Positions 26,895 to 44,277 of a DNA stretch of 64,000 nucleotides are shown here, piece after piece (the stretch's first letter is position 1; the number at the start of each line of letters is the position of its first letter). The stretch is from Desulfosudis oleivorans Hxd3. Lineage in GTDB: Bacteria > Desulfobacterota > Desulfobacteria > Desulfobacterales > Desulfosudaceae. The stretch covers positions 747,001 through 811,000 of the forward strand of contig NC_009943.1 in assembly GCF_000018405.1 (NCBI RefSeq). The letters are read 5' to 3'. The notes beneath the pieces were generated by a model, which saw nothing but the letters and a program-made list of their open reading frames with translations, was not told where the DNA came from and did not search any database. The position numbers and the translations under genes are program-made.

Positions 26895-27821
26895 ATGGTG
26901 GTGGCTATCGGCGAGGTGTTGTTTGACGTTTTCCCCGAAGACAAGCGGATCGGCGGCGCCCCCTTTAATTTTGCCGTTCACCTGGCAAACATGGGGTTTC
27001 CCGTTCACTTTGTCACCCGGGTGGGAAAGGATGCCAACGGCAGGGCGATTCTGGACCTGATGCACCGGTTCGGGCTGTCCCGCGAGAACGTTCAGATCGA
27101 TCCCGAGTATGCCACCGGCCGGGTCATGGTCCATCCAGAGGCGGACGGGGGCCACCGGTTTGATATTGTTGCGCCGGCAGCCTACGACTACCTGGCGTGC
27201 ACCGATCAAGTCATGGACCTGATGCGCACCCCGCCGGACATGGTCTATTTCGGTACCCTGGCCCAGCGGTCTGAGCAGAGCCGGCAGGCCATGGAAGAGA
27301 TGTTTCAGGCGGCCCCGCCGGAAACCCGGTTTTTCTGCGATATCAACCTTCGACCCGGCGGCTATGACCGGGCAATTGTCGATGGCGCCCTGCAACAGGC
27401 CGACCTGCTGAAGCTCAATGACGCGGAGCTGGCCGTTATCGGAGAGATGTTTGACATTCAAGGGGATACGGAAACCATGATTCGCCGGCTGATGGAAGCC
27501 CGCGGGCTGGTGCTGGTGGCCCTGACCCTGGGCAGCCGGGGCGGCCGGTTGTTTACCCCTGACGATCATGTCCGCATCGACCTGCCGTCCCGGTCCGCCG
27601 GTCCGCCGGTGGTGGACACCGTGGGCGCCGGTGATGCCTTTGCCGCGGTCACGGCCGCCGGGTTCTTGCAGAACCGTCATCTGTCAACCATTCTGGAGGC
27701 AGCCACGGAGTTTGCCGGCCGCATCTGCGGTATTCAGGGCGCGGTGCCCGATTCACCCGATTTTTACAGGCAGGGTCGCCTGCCCGAATTTTTTTACAAA
27801 GACACCGGAGAAAGCCGATGA
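26895..27821 (+). CDS. PfkB-family sugar kinase, probable fructokinase
   Basis: 308 residues, ATG after AAGGGAG. Family motifs: GGAPFNFAVHLANMG near the N-terminus for substrate binding, and the C-terminal DTVGAGDAFAAV, where GAGD contains the catalytic Asp and the anion hole. It is the first gene of an overlapping trio; its stop overlaps the start of the sucrose-phosphate synthase gene (ATGA). In that setting the expected reaction is fructose plus ATP to fructose 6-phosphate, reusing the fructose released by the sucrose phosphorylase two genes on. Substrate is inferred from context. Confidence 0.88.
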   Translation: MVVAIGEVLFDVFPEDKRIGGAPFNFAVHLANMGFPVHFVTRVGKDANGRAILDLMHRFGLSRENVQIDPEYATGRVMVHPEADGGHRFDIVAPAAYDYLACTDQVMDLMRTPPDMVYFGTLAQRSEQSRQAMEEMFQAAPPETRFFCDINLRPGGYDRAIVDGALQQADLLKLNDAELAVIGEMFDIQGDTETMIRRLMEARGLVLVALTLGSRGGRLFTPDDHVRIDLPSRSAGPPVVDTVGAGDAFAAVTAAGFLQNRHLSTILEAATEFAGRICGIQGAVPDSPDFYRQGRLPEFFYKDTGESR

Positions 27822-30025
27822 CAAAACGGGGGCTATATATCCAGATGTTCAGCATTCACGGCCTGGTGCGGGACCGCAACATGGAGATGGGCCGGGACGC
27901 CGATACCGGGGGCCAGGTGTTGTACGTGGTAGAGCTGGCCCGCCACCTGAGCCGGCACAAGGACGTGGAACGGGTGGACCTGCTGACCCGGCGCGTCACG
28001 GACAAGGCGGTTTCCAGTGACTATGCCGAACCGGTGGTGCAGGTCAACGATAAATTCCGCATCGTGCGCATTCCCTGCGGCGGCGGCCGATACCTTCGAA
28101 AGGAGCTGTTGTGGCCCCATCTGGACGAGTACGTGGACAAGACCATTCAGTTCATCCGGTCACAGGACCGGGTGCCGGATATTGTTCACGGTCATTATGC
28201 CGATGCCGGGTACGTGGCGTCCCAGCTGGCCCAGCTGTTTGACATCGGGTTTGTGTTCACCGGTCACTCCCTGGGCCGCCAGAAAAAGGAGCGGCTGCTC
28301 AAGGACGGCATGCGCGAGGCCGATATTATAAAAAAGTACCGCATCGACCACCGCATTCGCGTGGAGGAGGATGTGCTTAAAAGCTGCGACCTGGTGGTGA
28401 CCAGTACGCACCAGGAGGTGGAAAAGCAGTACGGCGCCTACACGGACCACCACCTGCCGGAACGGTTCTGCGTGATTCCGCCGGGTATCGACGTGGACCG
28501 TTTCTATCCCTATTACCACGATATCGCCGGGGACAACGAGCGCACCGAGGCGGCCCTCTTTGCCCGGGCTTCGGTGATCGAGGAGATGAACCGGTTTTTC
28601 ATGCAGCCGGACAAGCCCCTGGTGCTGGCCCTGTCGCGGCCGGACAAGCGCAAGAACATATCCGGCCTGATCCAGGCCTTCGGCTCGGACCGGGAGCTTT
28701 CCTCCATGGCCAACCTGGCGGTATTTGCCGGTATTCGAAAAGACATCACCCGGATGGGCGATAACGAGCAGGACGTGCTGACCATGATGTTGCTCTCCAT
28801 GGACAAGTATGACCTGTACGGCAAGATGGCCATTCCCAAGCAGCACGATTTTGAACACGAGGTGCCCGAGCTTTACCGCATTGCCGCCGAGCGCAAAGGG
28901 GTGTTTGTCAACGTGGCCCTGACCGAACCCTTCGGCCTCACCCTGATCGAGGCCGCGGCCACCGGCCTGCCCCTTGTGGCTACAAAGGACGGCGGGCCCC
29001 GGGATATCATGGCCAACTGCGACTGCGGCCTGCTGGTGGACCCGCTGAACCCGGAGGAGATCAGCGGCGCCATCAAGACCCTTCTCACCCGGCCGGACAC
29101 ATGGAAGCGCTGTTCGCGCAACGGTGTGATGAACGTGCGGAAACACTACACCTGGGAGAGCCACGTGGACCGGTATGTGAAATCCCTGCGCCAGACCTTG
29201 GCCGAGACGGGAAAACAGGGCATGGACGTGGCCCGGCCCTCCAACGCCATCGGCCGGCGCCTGCTGCGGCTGGACCGCTTTCTGATCACCGATATCGACA
29301 ACACACTGGCCGGAGAGGACAACAGCCGGCTGGACGAACTGGTTCGCATTCTTAAGGAGAACCGGAACCGCGTGGGGTTCGGTGTGGCCACGGGCCGAAC
29401 CGTTTCATCGGCCGTGGCCTTTCTCAAGGAACTGGGTGTGGCGCCACCGGATATCGTGATCGCCTCCGTGGGGGCCGAGCTCTATTACGGCCGGGAGCTT
29501 CAATTTTCCAACGGCTGGGCCACTCATATCGCCAAGGGCTGGAACCGGGAGAGAATCGTGGACCTGCTGGCCGACCTGCCGTTTCTGGAGTATCAGCGGG
29601 AAGAGACCCAGCGGGAGTTTAAAATCAGCTACAACATGGCACCGGCAAAGGACCGCATTCCCCTGATCCACGAAATCCTTTCCCGGGAAAAGTGCCGGTA
29701 TACCCTGATCTACTCCCATGAAAAATACCTGGATATCCTTCCCTTCCGGGCCTCAAAAGGCAAGGCGATCCGCTACCTGGCCTACAAGTGGCAGGTGCCG
29801 CTCTCTCATTTTCTGGTGTGCGGGGATTCGGGCAATGACGAGGAGATGCTCCGGGGTGACATTCATGGCGTGGTGGTGGGCAACTACAGCCCGGAACTTA
29901 AGCCGCTTCGGGGCCGCCGCAACGTCTATTTTGCCAAGGCCCCCTGCGCCGCCGGCATTATCGAGGGGCTGGAACATTACCGCTTCCTGGAAAGGGAGGG
30001 CGGTGGAAAAAGGAAAAAGACATGA
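27818..30025 (+). CDS. Sucrose-phosphate synthase fused to sucrose-phosphatase
   Basis: 735 residues. The first 460 are a GT-B glycosyltransferase of family 4 with the sucrose synthase type opening GLYIQMFSIHGLVR...DTGGQVLYVVELAR, HGHYADAGYV and the C-terminal EPFGLTLIEAAATGLPLVAT. Residues from about 480 on form a HAD phosphatase: DIDNTLAG with the nucleophile Asp, VATGRT and CGDSGNDEEML. The fusion can turn UDP- or ADP-glucose plus fructose 6-phosphate into sucrose in one chain. It overlaps fructokinase upstream and sucrose phosphorylase downstream by four bases each. Sucrose is a likely compatible solute or carbon store here. Confidence 0.94.
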   Translation: MTKRGLYIQMFSIHGLVRDRNMEMGRDADTGGQVLYVVELARHLSRHKDVERVDLLTRRVTDKAVSSDYAEPVVQVNDKFRIVRIPCGGGRYLRKELLWPHLDEYVDKTIQFIRSQDRVPDIVHGHYADAGYVASQLAQLFDIGFVFTGHSLGRQKKERLLKDGMREADIIKKYRIDHRIRVEEDVLKSCDLVVTSTHQEVEKQYGAYTDHHLPERFCVIPPGIDVDRFYPYYHDIAGDNERTEAALFARASVIEEMNRFFMQPDKPLVLALSRPDKRKNISGLIQAFGSDRELSSMANLAVFAGIRKDITRMGDNEQDVLTMMLLSMDKYDLYGKMAIPKQHDFEHEVPELYRIAAERKGVFVNVALTEPFGLTLIEAAATGLPLVATKDGGPRDIMANCDCGLLVDPLNPEEISGAIKTLLTRPDTWKRCSRNGVMNVRKHYTWESHVDRYVKSLRQTLAETGKQGMDVARPSNAIGRRLLRLDRFLITDIDNTLAGEDNSRLDELVRILKENRNRVGFGVATGRTVSSAVAFLKELGVAPPDIVIASVGAELYYGRELQFSNGWATHIAKGWNRERIVDLLADLPFLEYQREETQREFKISYNMAPAKDRIPLIHEILSREKCRYTLIYSHEKYLDILPFRASKGKAIRYLAYKWQVPLSHFLVCGDSGNDEEMLRGDIHGVVVGNYSPELKPLRGRRNVYFAKAPCAAGIIEGLEHYRFLEREGGGKRKKT

Positions 30026-31470
30026 CCCTGAGAAACCGGATTCAGGTTATCAGTTACCCGGACAGCCTGGGAAAAAACCTTCAGGAGCTGCACTACGTGT
30101 TGCGCCGCTATTTTGCCGATGCCGCCGGTGGCGTGCATCTGCTTCCCTTTTACCCGTCGTCCGCGGACCGGGGGTTTGCCCCCGTTACCTATTACCAGGT
30201 GGACCCCGCCTTCGGCACCTGGCGTGACATCGAGCTGATTCAGGAGGACTTTGACATCACCATCGACTTCATGGTCAACCACATCTCCCGCCAGTCCAAG
30301 TACGTGGCCGACTTCATTGAAAAGGGAGATAAATCCGAATATGCCGACATGTTCTTGAGTTTCAACAAGCTGGCGCCCGACGGTGAAATCCGCAAGGAAG
30401 ATCTGGACAAGGTCTATACGAGAAAGCCGTCGCCTCCCTATCAGGTGATTGAACGGCCCGACGGTTCACGGGAGACCATCTGGTCCACGTTTGACTACGA
30501 ACAGATCGACGTGGATGTCCAGTCCCCGGTCACCCGGGAGCTGTTCCGGGATTTTCTGATTTTTCTTTCCCGCCGAAAGCCGGAATTTATCCGCATGGAC
30601 GCTTTTGCCTACACCACCATTCGCCTGGGCACCAACTGCTTCTTTGTCGAACCGGAAGTGTGGGAGCTTCTGGAAATGCTGGAGGGGTTTGTCTCCCCCT
30701 TCGGCGTGCAGCTGCTGCCAGAGGTCCACGAGCACTACTCCTACCAGTTGAAGCTGGCTGAAAAAGGCTACTGGGTCTATGACTTTGCCCTGCCCATGCT
30801 GGTGCTGCACACCCTTTATCATCACACCAACAAGCGGCTGCTGCACTGGCTTCGCATCTGTCCCCGCCGGCAGTTCACCACCCTGGACACCCATGACGGC
30901 CTGGGCGTGGTGGACGTGGCCGACCTCATGAGCCAGGAGGAGATCGAGCGCACCGTGGACGGTCTGTATGAAAAGGGTTCCAACATCAAGCGCATCTATT
31001 CCACCGCCGATTACCAGAACCTGGACATCTACCAGGTCAACTGCACCTACTATTCGGCACTGGAGCGCAACGACGACTCCTACCTGGCGGCCCGGACCCT
31101 TCAGTTCTACGCGCCGGGCATTCCTCATGTTTACTACGTGGGGCTGCTGGCCGGGGAAAACGATGTGGCCCTGGTGGAGGCCACCCGGAACGGCCGGGAC
31201 ATCAACCGGCACAATTACACCCTGGACGAAATCGCCGTGGCGGTGGAGCGGGAGGTGGTGCAGCGGCTGATCCGGCTGATGCGGTTTCGCAGCAGCTATC
31301 CCGCCTTTGACGGCGAGCTGGTCATCGAAGAGACACCGGAAAACCGGGTGGCCCTCACGTGGAACATGCCTCCCTATACCACCACGGCCCGGGTGGACCT
31401 GGACAGCTACCGCACCGAGATCACCTTCTGGGATGCCGATACCCGGTCGGAAAAGTCTTTTGTGGTATGA
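30022..31470 (+). CDS. Sucrose phosphorylase (GH13)
   Basis: 482 residues, the usual length. Starts at the ATG overlapping the previous stop. A GH13_18 barrel is visible: ISYPDSLG and LLPFYPSSADRGFAPVTYYQVDP at the front (including the Asp contact region), FMVNHIS, then RMDAFAY with the nucleophile Asp, LLPEVHEH with the acid/base Glu and LDTHDGLGVVD with the stabilising Asp. It converts sucrose and phosphate to glucose 1-phosphate and fructose. A preference for sucrose 6'-phosphate is possible in this subfamily. Together with the two upstream genes it closes a sucrose cycle that conserves the glycosidic bond energy. Confidence 0.94.
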   Translation: MTLRNRIQVISYPDSLGKNLQELHYVLRRYFADAAGGVHLLPFYPSSADRGFAPVTYYQVDPAFGTWRDIELIQEDFDITIDFMVNHISRQSKYVADFIEKGDKSEYADMFLSFNKLAPDGEIRKEDLDKVYTRKPSPPYQVIERPDGSRETIWSTFDYEQIDVDVQSPVTRELFRDFLIFLSRRKPEFIRMDAFAYTTIRLGTNCFFVEPEVWELLEMLEGFVSPFGVQLLPEVHEHYSYQLKLAEKGYWVYDFALPMLVLHTLYHHTNKRLLHWLRICPRRQFTTLDTHDGLGVVDVADLMSQEEIERTVDGLYEKGSNIKRIYSTADYQNLDIYQVNCTYYSALERNDDSYLAARTLQFYAPGIPHVYYVGLLAGENDVALVEATRNGRDINRHNYTLDEIAVAVEREVVQRLIRLMRFRSSYPAFDGELVIEETPENRVALTWNMPPYTTTARVDLDSYRTEITFWDADTRSEKSFVV

Positions 31471-31788: not shown

Positions 31789-33699
31789 GTGCGACAGCTG
31801 ATTCTGGGAACCGCCGGCCATATCGATCACGGCAAATCCAGCTTTGTCAAGGCCCTCACCGGCACCGACCCGGACCGTCTCAAGGAGGAGAAGGCCAGGG
31901 GCATCACCATTGAGCTGGGGTTTGCCTCCCTTACCCTTCCCGGCGGCCAGCAGGTGGGCATCGTGGATGTGCCCGGCCATGAAAAGTTCATCAAGAACAT
32001 GGTGGCCGGGGCTTCGGGCATCGACATGGTGGCCATGGTGATCGCCGCCGACGAGGGGGTGATGCCCCAGACCCGGGAACACATGGACATCTGCACCCTG
32101 CTGGGCATTGACCACGGCCTTGTGGTGCTGACCAAGATCGACATGGTGGACGAAGAGATGCTGGAACTGGCCATGGCCGACGTGGAAGACTTTACGCAAA
32201 ACACCTTTCTGGAGGGGGCCCCGGTGCTGCCCGTCTCCGCTGTTACAGGGGAGGGCATTGCCGAGTTTCCCGCGATCCTGGAACGCCTGGCCGCGAATGT
32301 GCCGGACCGCAACCCCACCGACCTGCTGCGCATTCCCATTGACCGGGTTTTTTCCATGAAAGGATTCGGCACGGTGATTACCGGCACCCTGGTGGCCGGC
32401 GCCGTGACCGTGGGTGAAACCGTGGAGCTTTACCCTTTTGACGTCCGGACCAGGGTGCGGGGCCTTCAGGTCCACAACAGCAGCGTGGAGCGGGCCGATG
32501 CCGGCCTGCGCACCGCCATCAACCTTCAGGGCCTGGAAAAAACCGAGATCACCCGCGGCGGCGTGGTGGGCCGGCCGGACCAGCTTTTGCCCACCTATAT
32601 GCTGGACATCTATTTTCACGCGTTGAAGAGCAATGCAAGGCCCATCAAGCACCGTGCCCCGGTGCGGGTCCACTGCGGCACGGCCGAGGTGATGGGCCAG
32701 ATAATCCTGCTGGACCGGGAGACCCTTGATCCCGGCCAGGACACCGTGGTCCAGATTCGGTTAAAGGAGCCGGTGGTGTGCGTCAAGGATGACCGGGTGG
32801 TGGTGCGCAGTTATTCGCCGGTGCGCACCATCGGCGGCGGCCCGGTGTTAAACCCGGTGCCGGTCAAGCACCGGCGCAACGATTCATCCCTGGTAGAGGC
32901 CATCGCAAACCTGGCATCGGCCCCGCCCGAGGCGGTCATCGCCTTTCACTGCGAGCAGGCCGGGTTTCGGGGCGTTTCACTGCCCGCGCTCCGGGTCATG
33001 ACCAACCTTCCGGACAAGGCCCTGACAAGGGCCATGGACGGTTTGCTGTCGGGCCAGACCATTCTGCTGGTGGACCGGGAAAAACAGGTCTATGTTCACA
33101 AAACGCTTTTTGACAAAACCGCTTTTGAGATGCGGGCCATTCTCGACGCATTTCACCGGGACAACCCCTTGAAAAAAGGCATGCCCCGGCAGGACATCAA
33201 ATCCAGGATCGCACGCCGGGCCGGTGACAAGCTGTTTGAGCGGGTGCTGGACCGCATGGTCAAAAAAAAGGAGGTGGTCCAGGATGGCGACACCGTGCAC
33301 CTGTCCGGCCATGCCGTGGCCCTGGCCTCGGACCAGGGGAAAATCAGGGAAGACCTGCTGAACCTGCTGGCCCAAAGCGGCCTTACACCACCCACCCTCA
33401 AGGAGTTGCCCGGGGCCATCGGCACCCAGGATACCGGGGCGGTCCGCGAAGTGCTTTACCTGCTGGTGCAGCAGAAAGACCTGGTAAGGGTCAAGGACGA
33501 TCTTTATTTTAATAGCGCTGTTCTCGAACGCCTTGAATCCGAACTGGTTGATTTTTTAAATAAAAACGGAACAATCGACGCGCCCCGGTTCAAGGAGATG
33601 ACCGGCGCCTCCCGCAAATACACCATCCCGTTGCTGGAATATTTTGACGCGAAAAAGGTGACCATTCGCGTGGGGGACACCCGCAAGCTCAGGCAATGA
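31789..33699 (+). CDS. selB: Selenocysteine-specific elongation factor SelB
   Basis: Delivers Sec-tRNA to UGA codons marked by a SECIS hairpin. 636 residues with a GTG start after AGGGAG. The GTPase domain shows GHIDHGKSS (G1), DVPGHEKF (G3) and TKID (G4); EF-Tu-like beta-barrel domains follow ([15 protein letters not shown]), and the C-terminal third is the set of winged helices that bind the SECIS RNA. Complete and intact. selA, selC and selD are not in the window. A selenoprotein gene is present at 43118-43441, which gives this factor a local client. Confidence 0.97.
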
Positions 33700-42219: not shown

Positions 42220-42930
42220 TCAAACCAGGCGCCCTCTTTCGATATACGCCCCATCTTCGTTGTCCATGGCGGCCACAATGTTCCGGTTCATGCGGCGCTT
42301 CATCTCGCCGATCGTCTTGCGGTCCTTGTTGAACTTTTTTGCAAAGGCCATGGCCTCGTTCATCAAGTCGTCTTTGTGACACGCCCTGGTCACGATGTGG
42401 TGCTTTTCGCACTCTTCGGCCGTCATGCGCAGGCCCAGGTACTGCATCTCATTCATTTTGTAAAGGGGAATGGCGGACTCGAGCAGCGCCAGCATGCCCG
42501 GCAGAAAGGGAATGCCCAGGTCCACCTCGGGAAAGCAGAAAAACCCCCGGTCGGACCGCATCACCCGAAAGTCAAAGGCGCAGGCCAGAATGGCGCCGCC
42601 GGCAAAGGCGTGGCCGGAAATGGCGGCAATGGTGATCATGGGGCAGGTGGCCACCCGCTTGAACATGTCGTTCTGCCGGTAGAGAAACTGTTTTACCTCG
42701 TCGGCTTTACCGGCCTGGATCAGGCCGGACAGCCAGTCCAGGTCGATGCCGTTGGAAAAGATTTTCTCGTGGGAGGATGTAACCACAATGGTGCGGGCCT
42801 CGGTTTTGGTCTCGAGCTCGTCGAACACCGAGATAAAGGTGTCGACAAAGTCGAGGTTGAACCGGTTTTCGCCGGTGTTTAACGAAACAACCGCCACTTC
42901 CTTGTCCAGTGTGTAAGTGATATCCGCCAT
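42220..42930 (-). CDS. Enoyl-CoA hydratase/isomerase family protein
   Basis: 236 residues from the ATG at 42930, which follows AAGGAGCAGG; the upstream extension is not needed. Crotonase fold: NLDFVDTF, SNGIDLDWL, the oxyanion-hole region SGHAFAGGAILACAFDFRVM, and FFCFPEVDLGIPFLPGM. A Glu is present in PEVDLG, while the loop after it (PFLPGM) differs from the GGTQRL pattern of true hydratases and resembles delta3,delta2-enoyl-CoA isomerases. I therefore favour an isomerase in fatty acid degradation. No other beta-oxidation gene is adjacent except a thiolase further on. Confidence 0.88.
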   Translation of the reverse strand: MADITYTLDKEVAVVSLNTGENRFNLDFVDTFISVFDELETKTEARTIVVTSSHEKIFSNGIDLDWLSGLIQAGKADEVKQFLYRQNDMFKRVATCPMITIAAISGHAFAGGAILACAFDFRVMRSDRGFFCFPEVDLGIPFLPGMLALLESAIPLYKMNEMQYLGLRMTAEECEKHHIVTRACHKDDLMNEAMAFAKKFNKDRKTIGEMKRRMNRNIVAAMDNEDGAYIERGRLV

Positions 42931-43043
42931 TCCTGCTCCTTCGGTGTCTTGATGTTGATACCGGTGTGTCAAAGCTTTCTCCTACCATGAAGGCGGACAG
43001 CGGTCAACAAGGACGGTCTCTCCCGGCCGGGGTCATGAAACGT

Positions 43044-43083
43044 AAAAGCCCGCTGCCATGCCGAAGCATGACAGCGGGCTTTT
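43044..43083 (-). terminator. Terminator of the selenoprotein gene
   Basis: AAAAGCCCGCTG (43044-43055) pairs with CAGCGGGCTTTT (43072-43083), a 12-bp stem with a 16-base loop; the A-run is a U-run on the minus strand. It can also end the opposite strand. Confidence 0.88.
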
Positions 43084-43117: not shown

Positions 43118-43441
43118 TTAACCGCAGGAGCCGCTGCTGCACGAACCGCCGCAGCTGCCGCCTTTCTGAAGTTCAATGGCAGAGGAAATGGCGAAGCCGA
43201 ACTGGTTGAAGTCAACCTTTACCGGCTGGGCTTTTTCCAGGAAAGCGCTGTCCATGATGAACTGCAGGTCATCCACCTTGTGAACCGTATCCGAATCTTT
43301 TGGCTCATCCAGAGCCATTGCAAAGGATGGGCCGCCTCACCCGCCTTCGTTTAAAAAGATCCGTATGGGTTTTACGTCCTTGCCCTTGAAGTAGTCCAGG
43401 ATCTGCTCCTGGGCCGCAGGCGTGATTTCAATGCCACTCAT
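43118..43441 (-). CDS. HesB/IscA-like selenoprotein (UGA = Sec35)
   Basis: 107 residues if the in-frame TGA at 43337-43339 is read as selenocysteine. The frame opens MSGIEITPAAQEQILDYFKG after AAGGAGG, reaches IFLNEGG-U-GGPSFAMALDE at residue 35, and ends IELQKGGSCGGSCSSGSCG. HesB/IscA proteins carry a conserved Cys here (GGCGGPS), so the TGA sits exactly on the iron-sulfur ligand. Bases after the TGA can form a 9-position stem with one mismatch (GGCCCATCC with GGATGAGCC, 14-base loop), a candidate SECIS. selB lies 10 kb away. HesB-like selenoproteins are a known family. Conventional gene finding would report only a 66-residue fragment from 43318. Confidence 0.9.
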
Positions 43442-43609
43442 GAGAAACCTCCTTCTGGCACCGGATCCCGATGCCGTAAAAGCCGGTATGTTCCCGGCAG
43501 TTTGTCTGCTTTAACAGAGCTGTTGCTATTGCCGTTTTCGTAACCTAATGACGGAACCGCTGTTTGTCAACTCTCTTTTTCCCACCATTACGGTTCCATG
43601 TGATAAAAA

Positions 43610-44137
43610 TTATGCAAGGACTGACAGATACCCTTCATACACCCTGACTGCGTCCGCGGAAAAAAGCGCGAAAATCACCTGTTCGATGGTCCGGTCGGTC
43701 TCAAGAAAGTCGCACACCGTGTCCAACGCGATTCTGCAGGCCTCTTTCATGGGGTAGCCGTACACTCCGCAGCTGACGGCCGGAAAGGCGACCGAGGCCA
43801 GGCCCTGGTCTTTTGCCAGTTTCAGGCTGTTGGTGTAGCAGCCAGCCAGGAGTTTTGCCACACCCGGGTTGGACCGGCTGTAGACCGGCCCCACGGTGTG
43901 GATCACGAATTTTGCCGGCAGCCGGTAGCCCCTGGTGATTTTGGCCTGGCCGGTATCGCATCCGCCCAGGGTTTTGCACTCGGCCAGCAGCTCAGGACCG
44001 GCGGCCCGGTGAATGGCCCCGTCCACGCCGCCCCCGCCCAGCAGGGTCTTGTTGGCGGCATTGACAATGGCATCCACCTCCAGGGTGGTGATGTCCCCCT
44101 GCCATACTTTGAGCCTTGACAGGATCTCTTTTTCCAT
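43610..44137 (-). CDS. Macrodomain protein (O-acetyl-ADP-ribose deacetylase type)
   Basis: 175 residues from the ATG at 44137 (MEKEILSRLKVWQGDIT); an upstream in-frame start at 44206 looks like read-in. Macrodomain landmarks: VDAIVNAANKTLLGGGGVDGAIHRAAG with the catalytic Asn and Asp region, GQAKITRGYRLPAKFVIHTVGP, and the phosphate loop FPAVSCGVYGYPM. Close to the YmdB/MacroD group, which remove acetyl from O-acetyl-ADP-ribose or ADP-ribose from proteins. Stand-alone gene. No ADP-ribosyltransferase or DarT-type toxin is adjacent. Confidence 0.94.
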   Translation of the reverse strand: MEKEILSRLKVWQGDITTLEVDAIVNAANKTLLGGGGVDGAIHRAAGPELLAECKTLGGCDTGQAKITRGYRLPAKFVIHTVGPVYSRSNPGVAKLLAGCYTNSLKLAKDQGLASVAFPAVSCGVYGYPMKEACRIALDTVCDFLETDRTIEQVIFALFSADAVRVYEGYLSVLA

Positions 44138-44277
44138 AGTTTTAGAATTATAACAGAATATTGTAGTTATGGGAAGCGCTATTCGGGCCGGGTGCATCCA
44201 CTCCACCGAATGTTATCCCTGGTTGATAGATAACTATTCTATTTTGTTTTAAATAAAATCCGAAAAGCCAAAGCTGT

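Follow-up and report, generated by a model that had tools for sequence, protein, structure and literature searches.

A candidate hesB-like selenoprotein gene with an in-frame TGA at codon 35 in Desulfosudis oleivorans Hxd3

A minus-strand frame of Desulfosudis oleivorans Hxd3 that resembles IscA/HesB proteins is interrupted by a TGA, and the question this raises is whether the codon is read as selenocysteine (Sec), as cysteine or as a stop. The frame lies in a 64,000-nucleotide stretch of DNA that was analysed as a whole (the window, whose numbering is used below). An earlier note made from the letters alone had proposed a selenoprotein of the HesB/IscA type in which Sec stands where the first conserved Cys is expected, and the family models, the homologues and the complete Sec machinery of the genome support that proposal. 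The locus at 43441-43118 is probably a functional hesB-like selenoprotein gene with Sec35 (probability roughly 0.9, a value that covers the gene and its Sec codon and leaves the biochemical role aside). This reading draws on the TGA at the first Cys position, the passing score against NF038090, the Sec machinery, homologues whose in-frame stops are TGA only, and a hairpin that is kept in the Sec members of the family but not in the Cys members.

The frame, its homologues and its family

The following features were located at the gene:

43118..43441, minus strand: candidate hesB-like selenoprotein gene, stop codon included, 107 aa, Sec at codon 35
43337..43339, minus strand: in-frame TGA, codon 35, matching the first conserved Cys in IscA/HesB
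43442..43454, minus strand: ribosome-binding site AAGGAGG, read from the sequence, with the ATG 6 nt further on
43118..43160, minus strand: Cys-rich C-terminal tail with Cys97, Cys101 and Cys106, which replaces the CGCG motif of IscA
43046..43080, minus strand: terminator-like hairpin 3' of the gene, AGCCCGCTGTCATGC-TTCG-GCATGGCAGCGGGCT and then TTT; the hairpin is strong and the T-run short

Re-reading of the sequence confirmed the frame that begins at 43441 after AAGGAGG. Translation from 43441 to 43118 on the minus strand gave 107 codons with a single in-frame TGA (codon 35, 43339-43337), and the product reads MSGIEITPAAQEQILDYFKGKDVKPIRIFLNEGG-U35-GGPSFAMALDE...GGSCGGSCSSGSCG, followed by the stop codon. 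The Cys-rich tail (CGGSCSSGSCG) and the hairpin at about 43080-43046 with its T-run were also found as the earlier note described them; the hairpin is absent from the consensus terminator scan, whose rule requires 5 T.

A phylum-wide scan found the hesB family in 220 of 395 genomes, 168 of them over the cut-off. Among the 150 matches listed in that scan, 119 contained one in-frame stop, which was always TGA, and 31 contained none (hand count). Of the 58 nearest genomes 55 had a match covering most of the length. Third-position changes relative to the nearest homologue (L044) made up 26 of 38 downstream of the TGA and 15 of 25 upstream. Because differences from the nearest relatives are mostly at third positions both before and after the TGA, the whole frame is under protein-level constraint. 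This pattern, together with the matches in 55 of the 58 relatives, indicates by sequence comparison that the observed frame with TGA35 is far beyond chance.

Standard ORF calling with table 11 sees only a 66-aa ORF at 43118-43318, as the earlier note had predicted for ordinary annotation, and this view of the locus would suit a decayed hesB gene in which a nonsense mutation leaves at most a 66-residue fragment. However, the ATG at 43318 that starts this ORF has no ribosome-binding site, and the fold would lose its initial strands and helix in such a fragment. The TGA is also common to more than 100 genomes, where it is never TAA or TAG, and protein constraint is found on both sides of it. A nonsense mutation was rejected, and its probability is negligible.

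The best-fitting family model was NF038090 (IscA_HesB_Se), a curated NCBIfam model of the selenoprotein type, at 107.3 bits (cut-off 85). PF01521 (Fe-S_biosyn) scored 30.7 bits, above its gathering cut-off of 26.3, and TIGR01911 (HesB-like selenoprotein) scored 45.2 bits, below its cut-off of 66.35. In a profile alignment residue 35 lines up with the first conserved Cys of both IscA and AQ_1857, in agreement with the earlier placement of the TGA, and the in-frame UGA at this Cys gives U35-G-G-P, the UxGP pattern of HesB-like selenoproteins. An AlphaFold2 model built from 62 homologues had a mean pLDDT of 85.9, with low confidence in the Cys-rich tail, which is probably mobile. The best structural matches of the model were E. 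coli IscA (Z 12.0, rmsd 3.0 over 91 residues) and SufA (Z 11.6).

Compared with HesB-like selenoproteins (NF038090; TIGR01911; Zhang et al. 2006, PMC1794560), the predicted protein is alike in Sec at the first Cys, UxGP, the IscA fold and the Cys-rich tail, and the only difference is that its TIGR01911 score is under the cut-off while NF038090 fits. Descriptions of the family go back to the mid-2000s, with 11 HesB-like selenoproteins, many of them in Deltaproteobacteria, and conversions from Sec to Cys (PMC1794560); its known frequency in Deltaproteobacteria fits the group to which the window gene belongs. A 2026 review lists it with the motif UxGP and no known function (PMC13188914). In Methanococcus maripaludis the HesB-like selenoprotein was identified via mutagenesis and 75Se labelling, its function is given as unclear, and a mutant had no nitrogen-fixation defect (PMC11097638). 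The earlier statement that the family is not new agrees with NF038090 and with these sources, and the window gene is clearly an ordinary addition to a family known in sulfate-reducing bacteria. The gene would add to a cultured sulfate reducer a selenoprotein that is well supported and easy to misannotate; the published genome table (Desulfococcus oleovorans Hxd3), as far as that table goes, seems to give zero selenocysteine proteins for this organism (PMC2702500).

A SECIS-like hairpin after the UGA

Two mutually exclusive structures that share a 3' strand lie downstream of the UGA:

43301..43317, minus strand: SECIS-like hairpin UGGCUC-UGGAU-GAGCCA, with a G in the apical loop and a stem that starts 19 nt after the UGA
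43302..43333, minus strand: alternative stem of the earlier note, GGCCCATCC at 43333-43325 with GGATGAGCC at 43310-43302, 8/9 pairs

The earlier note had offered the longer stem as support for Sec insertion and had proposed a SECIS search and an alignment with Cys homologues. The 8/9 pairing is present as claimed, but comparison of the homologues points to the short hairpin at 43301-43317 as the conserved SECIS-like element. Its core (GGCUC-UGGAU-GAGCC at 43302-43316, 20 nt after the UGA, or nt 24-38 with the U of UGA as 1) has all five pairs intact in 133 of the 136 distinct Sec homologues but in none of the 24 Cys homologues, and since the sequences are relatives that hardly vary this conservation is evidence of constraint, not of covariation. 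Codon choice within the hairpin is similarly fixed. Ala +8 is GCT in 135 of 136 (138/794, or 17%, at other Ala sites in the same genes), Leu +9 is CTG in 134 of 136 (221/753, 29%, at other Leu sites) and Glu +11 is GAG in 134 of 134 (291/858, 34%, at other Glu sites). The Cys homologues do not show this synonymous fixation at the hairpin codons. Bacterial SECIS elements have been described as having a small apical loop with a G and a site just downstream of the UGA (PMC1088965), and the short hairpin appears to fit this description in its loop G, its position and its loss in Cys paralogues. Its near-invariant 15-nt core, which can separate Sec from Cys members, gives a sharper SECIS definition for the hesB family.

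Predicted folding depended on the length of RNA considered and does not by itself pick out the short hairpin. With 45 nt from the UGA the longer stem had a probability of 0.99 and the short hairpin 0.01, with 60 nt the values were 0.58 and 0.42, and in a 71-nt stretch the short hairpin was favoured. Folding z-scores for the SECIS region were weak. An Rfam scan at gathering thresholds returned only a tRNA-Arg, so it gives no RNA-family support in either direction. The longer stem reaches 7 or more pairs in 79 of 136 Sec homologues but 8 or all 9 of its pairs in just 18, against 133 of 136 for the short hairpin. It was dropped as a SECIS candidate on this last count and is probably not the SECIS.

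Under the selenoprotein reading, SelB would bind the short hairpin in the mRNA and bring Sec-tRNA-Sec to UGA35, giving the 107-residue protein, and failed Sec insertion would give a 34-residue peptide.

Some genomes carry neighbouring Sec and Cys copies of hesB (L016, L017, L018, L025, L038, L042, L043, L136), and the Cys copies are without the hairpin. Two Cys-type genes (L153, L155) still carry a portion of the hairpin (GCT CTG GAT/GAC GA), resembling SECIS remnants.

Sec machinery and a second UCA tRNA

The genome is a single contig of 3,944,167 bp, and the window itself holds the gene for the Sec-specific elongation factor, as previously noted:

31789..33699, plus strand: selB, TIGR00475 374 bits; no other SelB in the genome scores above the cut-off

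Elsewhere in the genome are selA (597 bits), a canonical tRNA-Sec (75 bits) and selD, which is itself a Sec gene with its Sec codon in AGUASK (L011:1429-2841). SelA, SelB, SelD and tRNA-Sec are therefore all encoded. The absence of selA, selC or selD had been named beforehand as a reason to reject the selenoprotein reading, and with this complete machinery all three are present. Since 355 of the 395 genomes from the phylum have selA, its co-occurrence with hesB is uninformative; the 6 of 119 genomes with a TGA-hesB and no selA match (hand count) are all multi-contig drafts. Genes for sucrose-phosphate synthase and sucrose phosphorylase lie at 27818-31470, directly upstream of selB.

The genome also carries a second tRNA-Sec-like gene with a UCA anticodon (G000:C1:3561047-3561140; L173:8048-8140, minus strand; RF01852, 54.7 bits). 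Its discriminator base is U73, which is a Cys identity element. Another genome from the same family (G395, L219) also has this tRNA, with a compensatory acceptor pair (C4:G here, T:A in G395). Other relatives have typical selC*-type Cys tRNAs with UCA and a second selB just downstream, and a selC* tRNA-Cys(UCA) with selB* has been described in Desulfobacterales (Mukai et al. 2017, as related in a review, PMC7609411). The genome studied here resembles that system in its second UCA tRNA with U73. However, this tRNA has a 7/5 branch and no bulged 8/4 form, and it has no adjoining selB* or truncated cysS*. No second SelB over the cut-off was found in the genome, and the window SelB shares no more than about 27 to 31% identity with the SelB* proteins of relatives. 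The second tRNA is possibly an opal-reading Cys tRNA without a SelB of its own.

This raises the alternative that the second UCA tRNA (C1:3561047-3561140) inserts Cys at a recoded UGA35, either wholly or when selenium is short. The U73, the retention of this tRNA within the family with its compensatory pair and the clear selC*-type UCA Cys tRNAs beside a second selB in related genomes (system: PMC7609411) all speak for such recoding. On the other hand, many relatives have a TGA-hesB and a canonical tRNA-Sec with no second UCA tRNA found (for example G396 and G397), and because TGA-hesB occurs where only canonical tRNA-Sec was found, Sec is the expected residue at UGA35. The lack of a second SelB and of the bulged 8/4 form, in a tRNA with a 7/5 branch, also counts against recoding as Cys. 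In addition, TGA terminates 27 of 45 long ORFs in the window, so general suppression would be harmful. Recoding as Cys is for these reasons highly improbable. It is likewise very unlikely that UGA35 is ambiguous, read as Sec via SelB and tRNA-Sec and as Cys via the U73 UCA tRNA in low selenium, though if this were true one gene would have a built-in Sec/Cys backup. Given the second UCA tRNA with U73 in the genome, occasional Cys at UGA35 remains a minor alternative to Sec.

One cluster in a related genome (L222:1339-7500) ties the hesB family to a second UGA-decoding set. It contains HdrA-like and MvhD-like genes (named by eye), a Cys-type hesB, a second selB and, some 25 bp past hesB, a selC*-type UCA tRNA. 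Another locus of the present genome (L183:589-2904; G000:C1 near 1392668) encodes a 771-aa fusion of cysteine synthase (PALP, TIGR01136) and cysteinyl-tRNA synthetase, with a normal CysRS elsewhere in the genome.

Possible role of the product and its neighbours

The predicted protein is like the A-type Fe-S proteins IscA, SufA and ErpA in its fold and the position of its first Cys. It differs from them in having Sec for Cys, in lacking isc/suf neighbours and in scoring only 24.4 to 25.0 bits against their equivalog models, far under the cut-offs of 117 to 151. It also differs in its tail (CGGSCSSGSCG), where their C-terminal CGCG ligand motif was not found. On the sequence and the structural model, the somewhat favoured role is that of an A-type protein that uses Sec35 and its mobile Cys tail to bind an Fe-S cluster, iron or some other thiophilic metal. 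Sec35 with Cys97, Cys101 and Cys106 would then be metal ligands like Cys35/99/101 in IscA, and the selenolate might give tighter or redox-linked metal binding under strictly anaerobic conditions. Should Sec35 prove to be a metal ligand, the protein would be an unusual example of selenium coordinating iron or an Fe-S cluster.

Less probable but still plausible is that the same selenoprotein works as a thiol-selenol redox enzyme, or binds mercury or metalloids, in place of carrying Fe-S clusters. Most selenoproteins are redox enzymes, and a selenenylsulfide could form from Sec35 and the three Cys of the tail. No function is known for the family (PMC13188914, PMC11097638), and isc/suf genes are missing from the shared neighbours. 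However, no UxxC or CxxU motif was found beside Sec35, and the IscA fold and the ligand position of the first Cys favour the A-type role.

Two neighbouring genes are shared with homologous loci:

43610..44206, minus strand: macro-domain protein gene, upstream of hesB, a neighbour common to 35 homologous loci
42220..42972, minus strand: enoyl-CoA hydratase family gene, downstream of hesB, common to 18 homologous loci

No isc/suf or other Fe-S assembly genes were recognised among the shared neighbours of the homologous loci, and the neighbourhood was dropped as a functional clue because it offers no hint. The neighbours seen at hesB-like loci were macro-domain, GalE-like and enoyl-CoA hydratase genes, and in many relatives hesB is preceded by a macro-domain gene (43610-44206 in the window, and 35 related loci).
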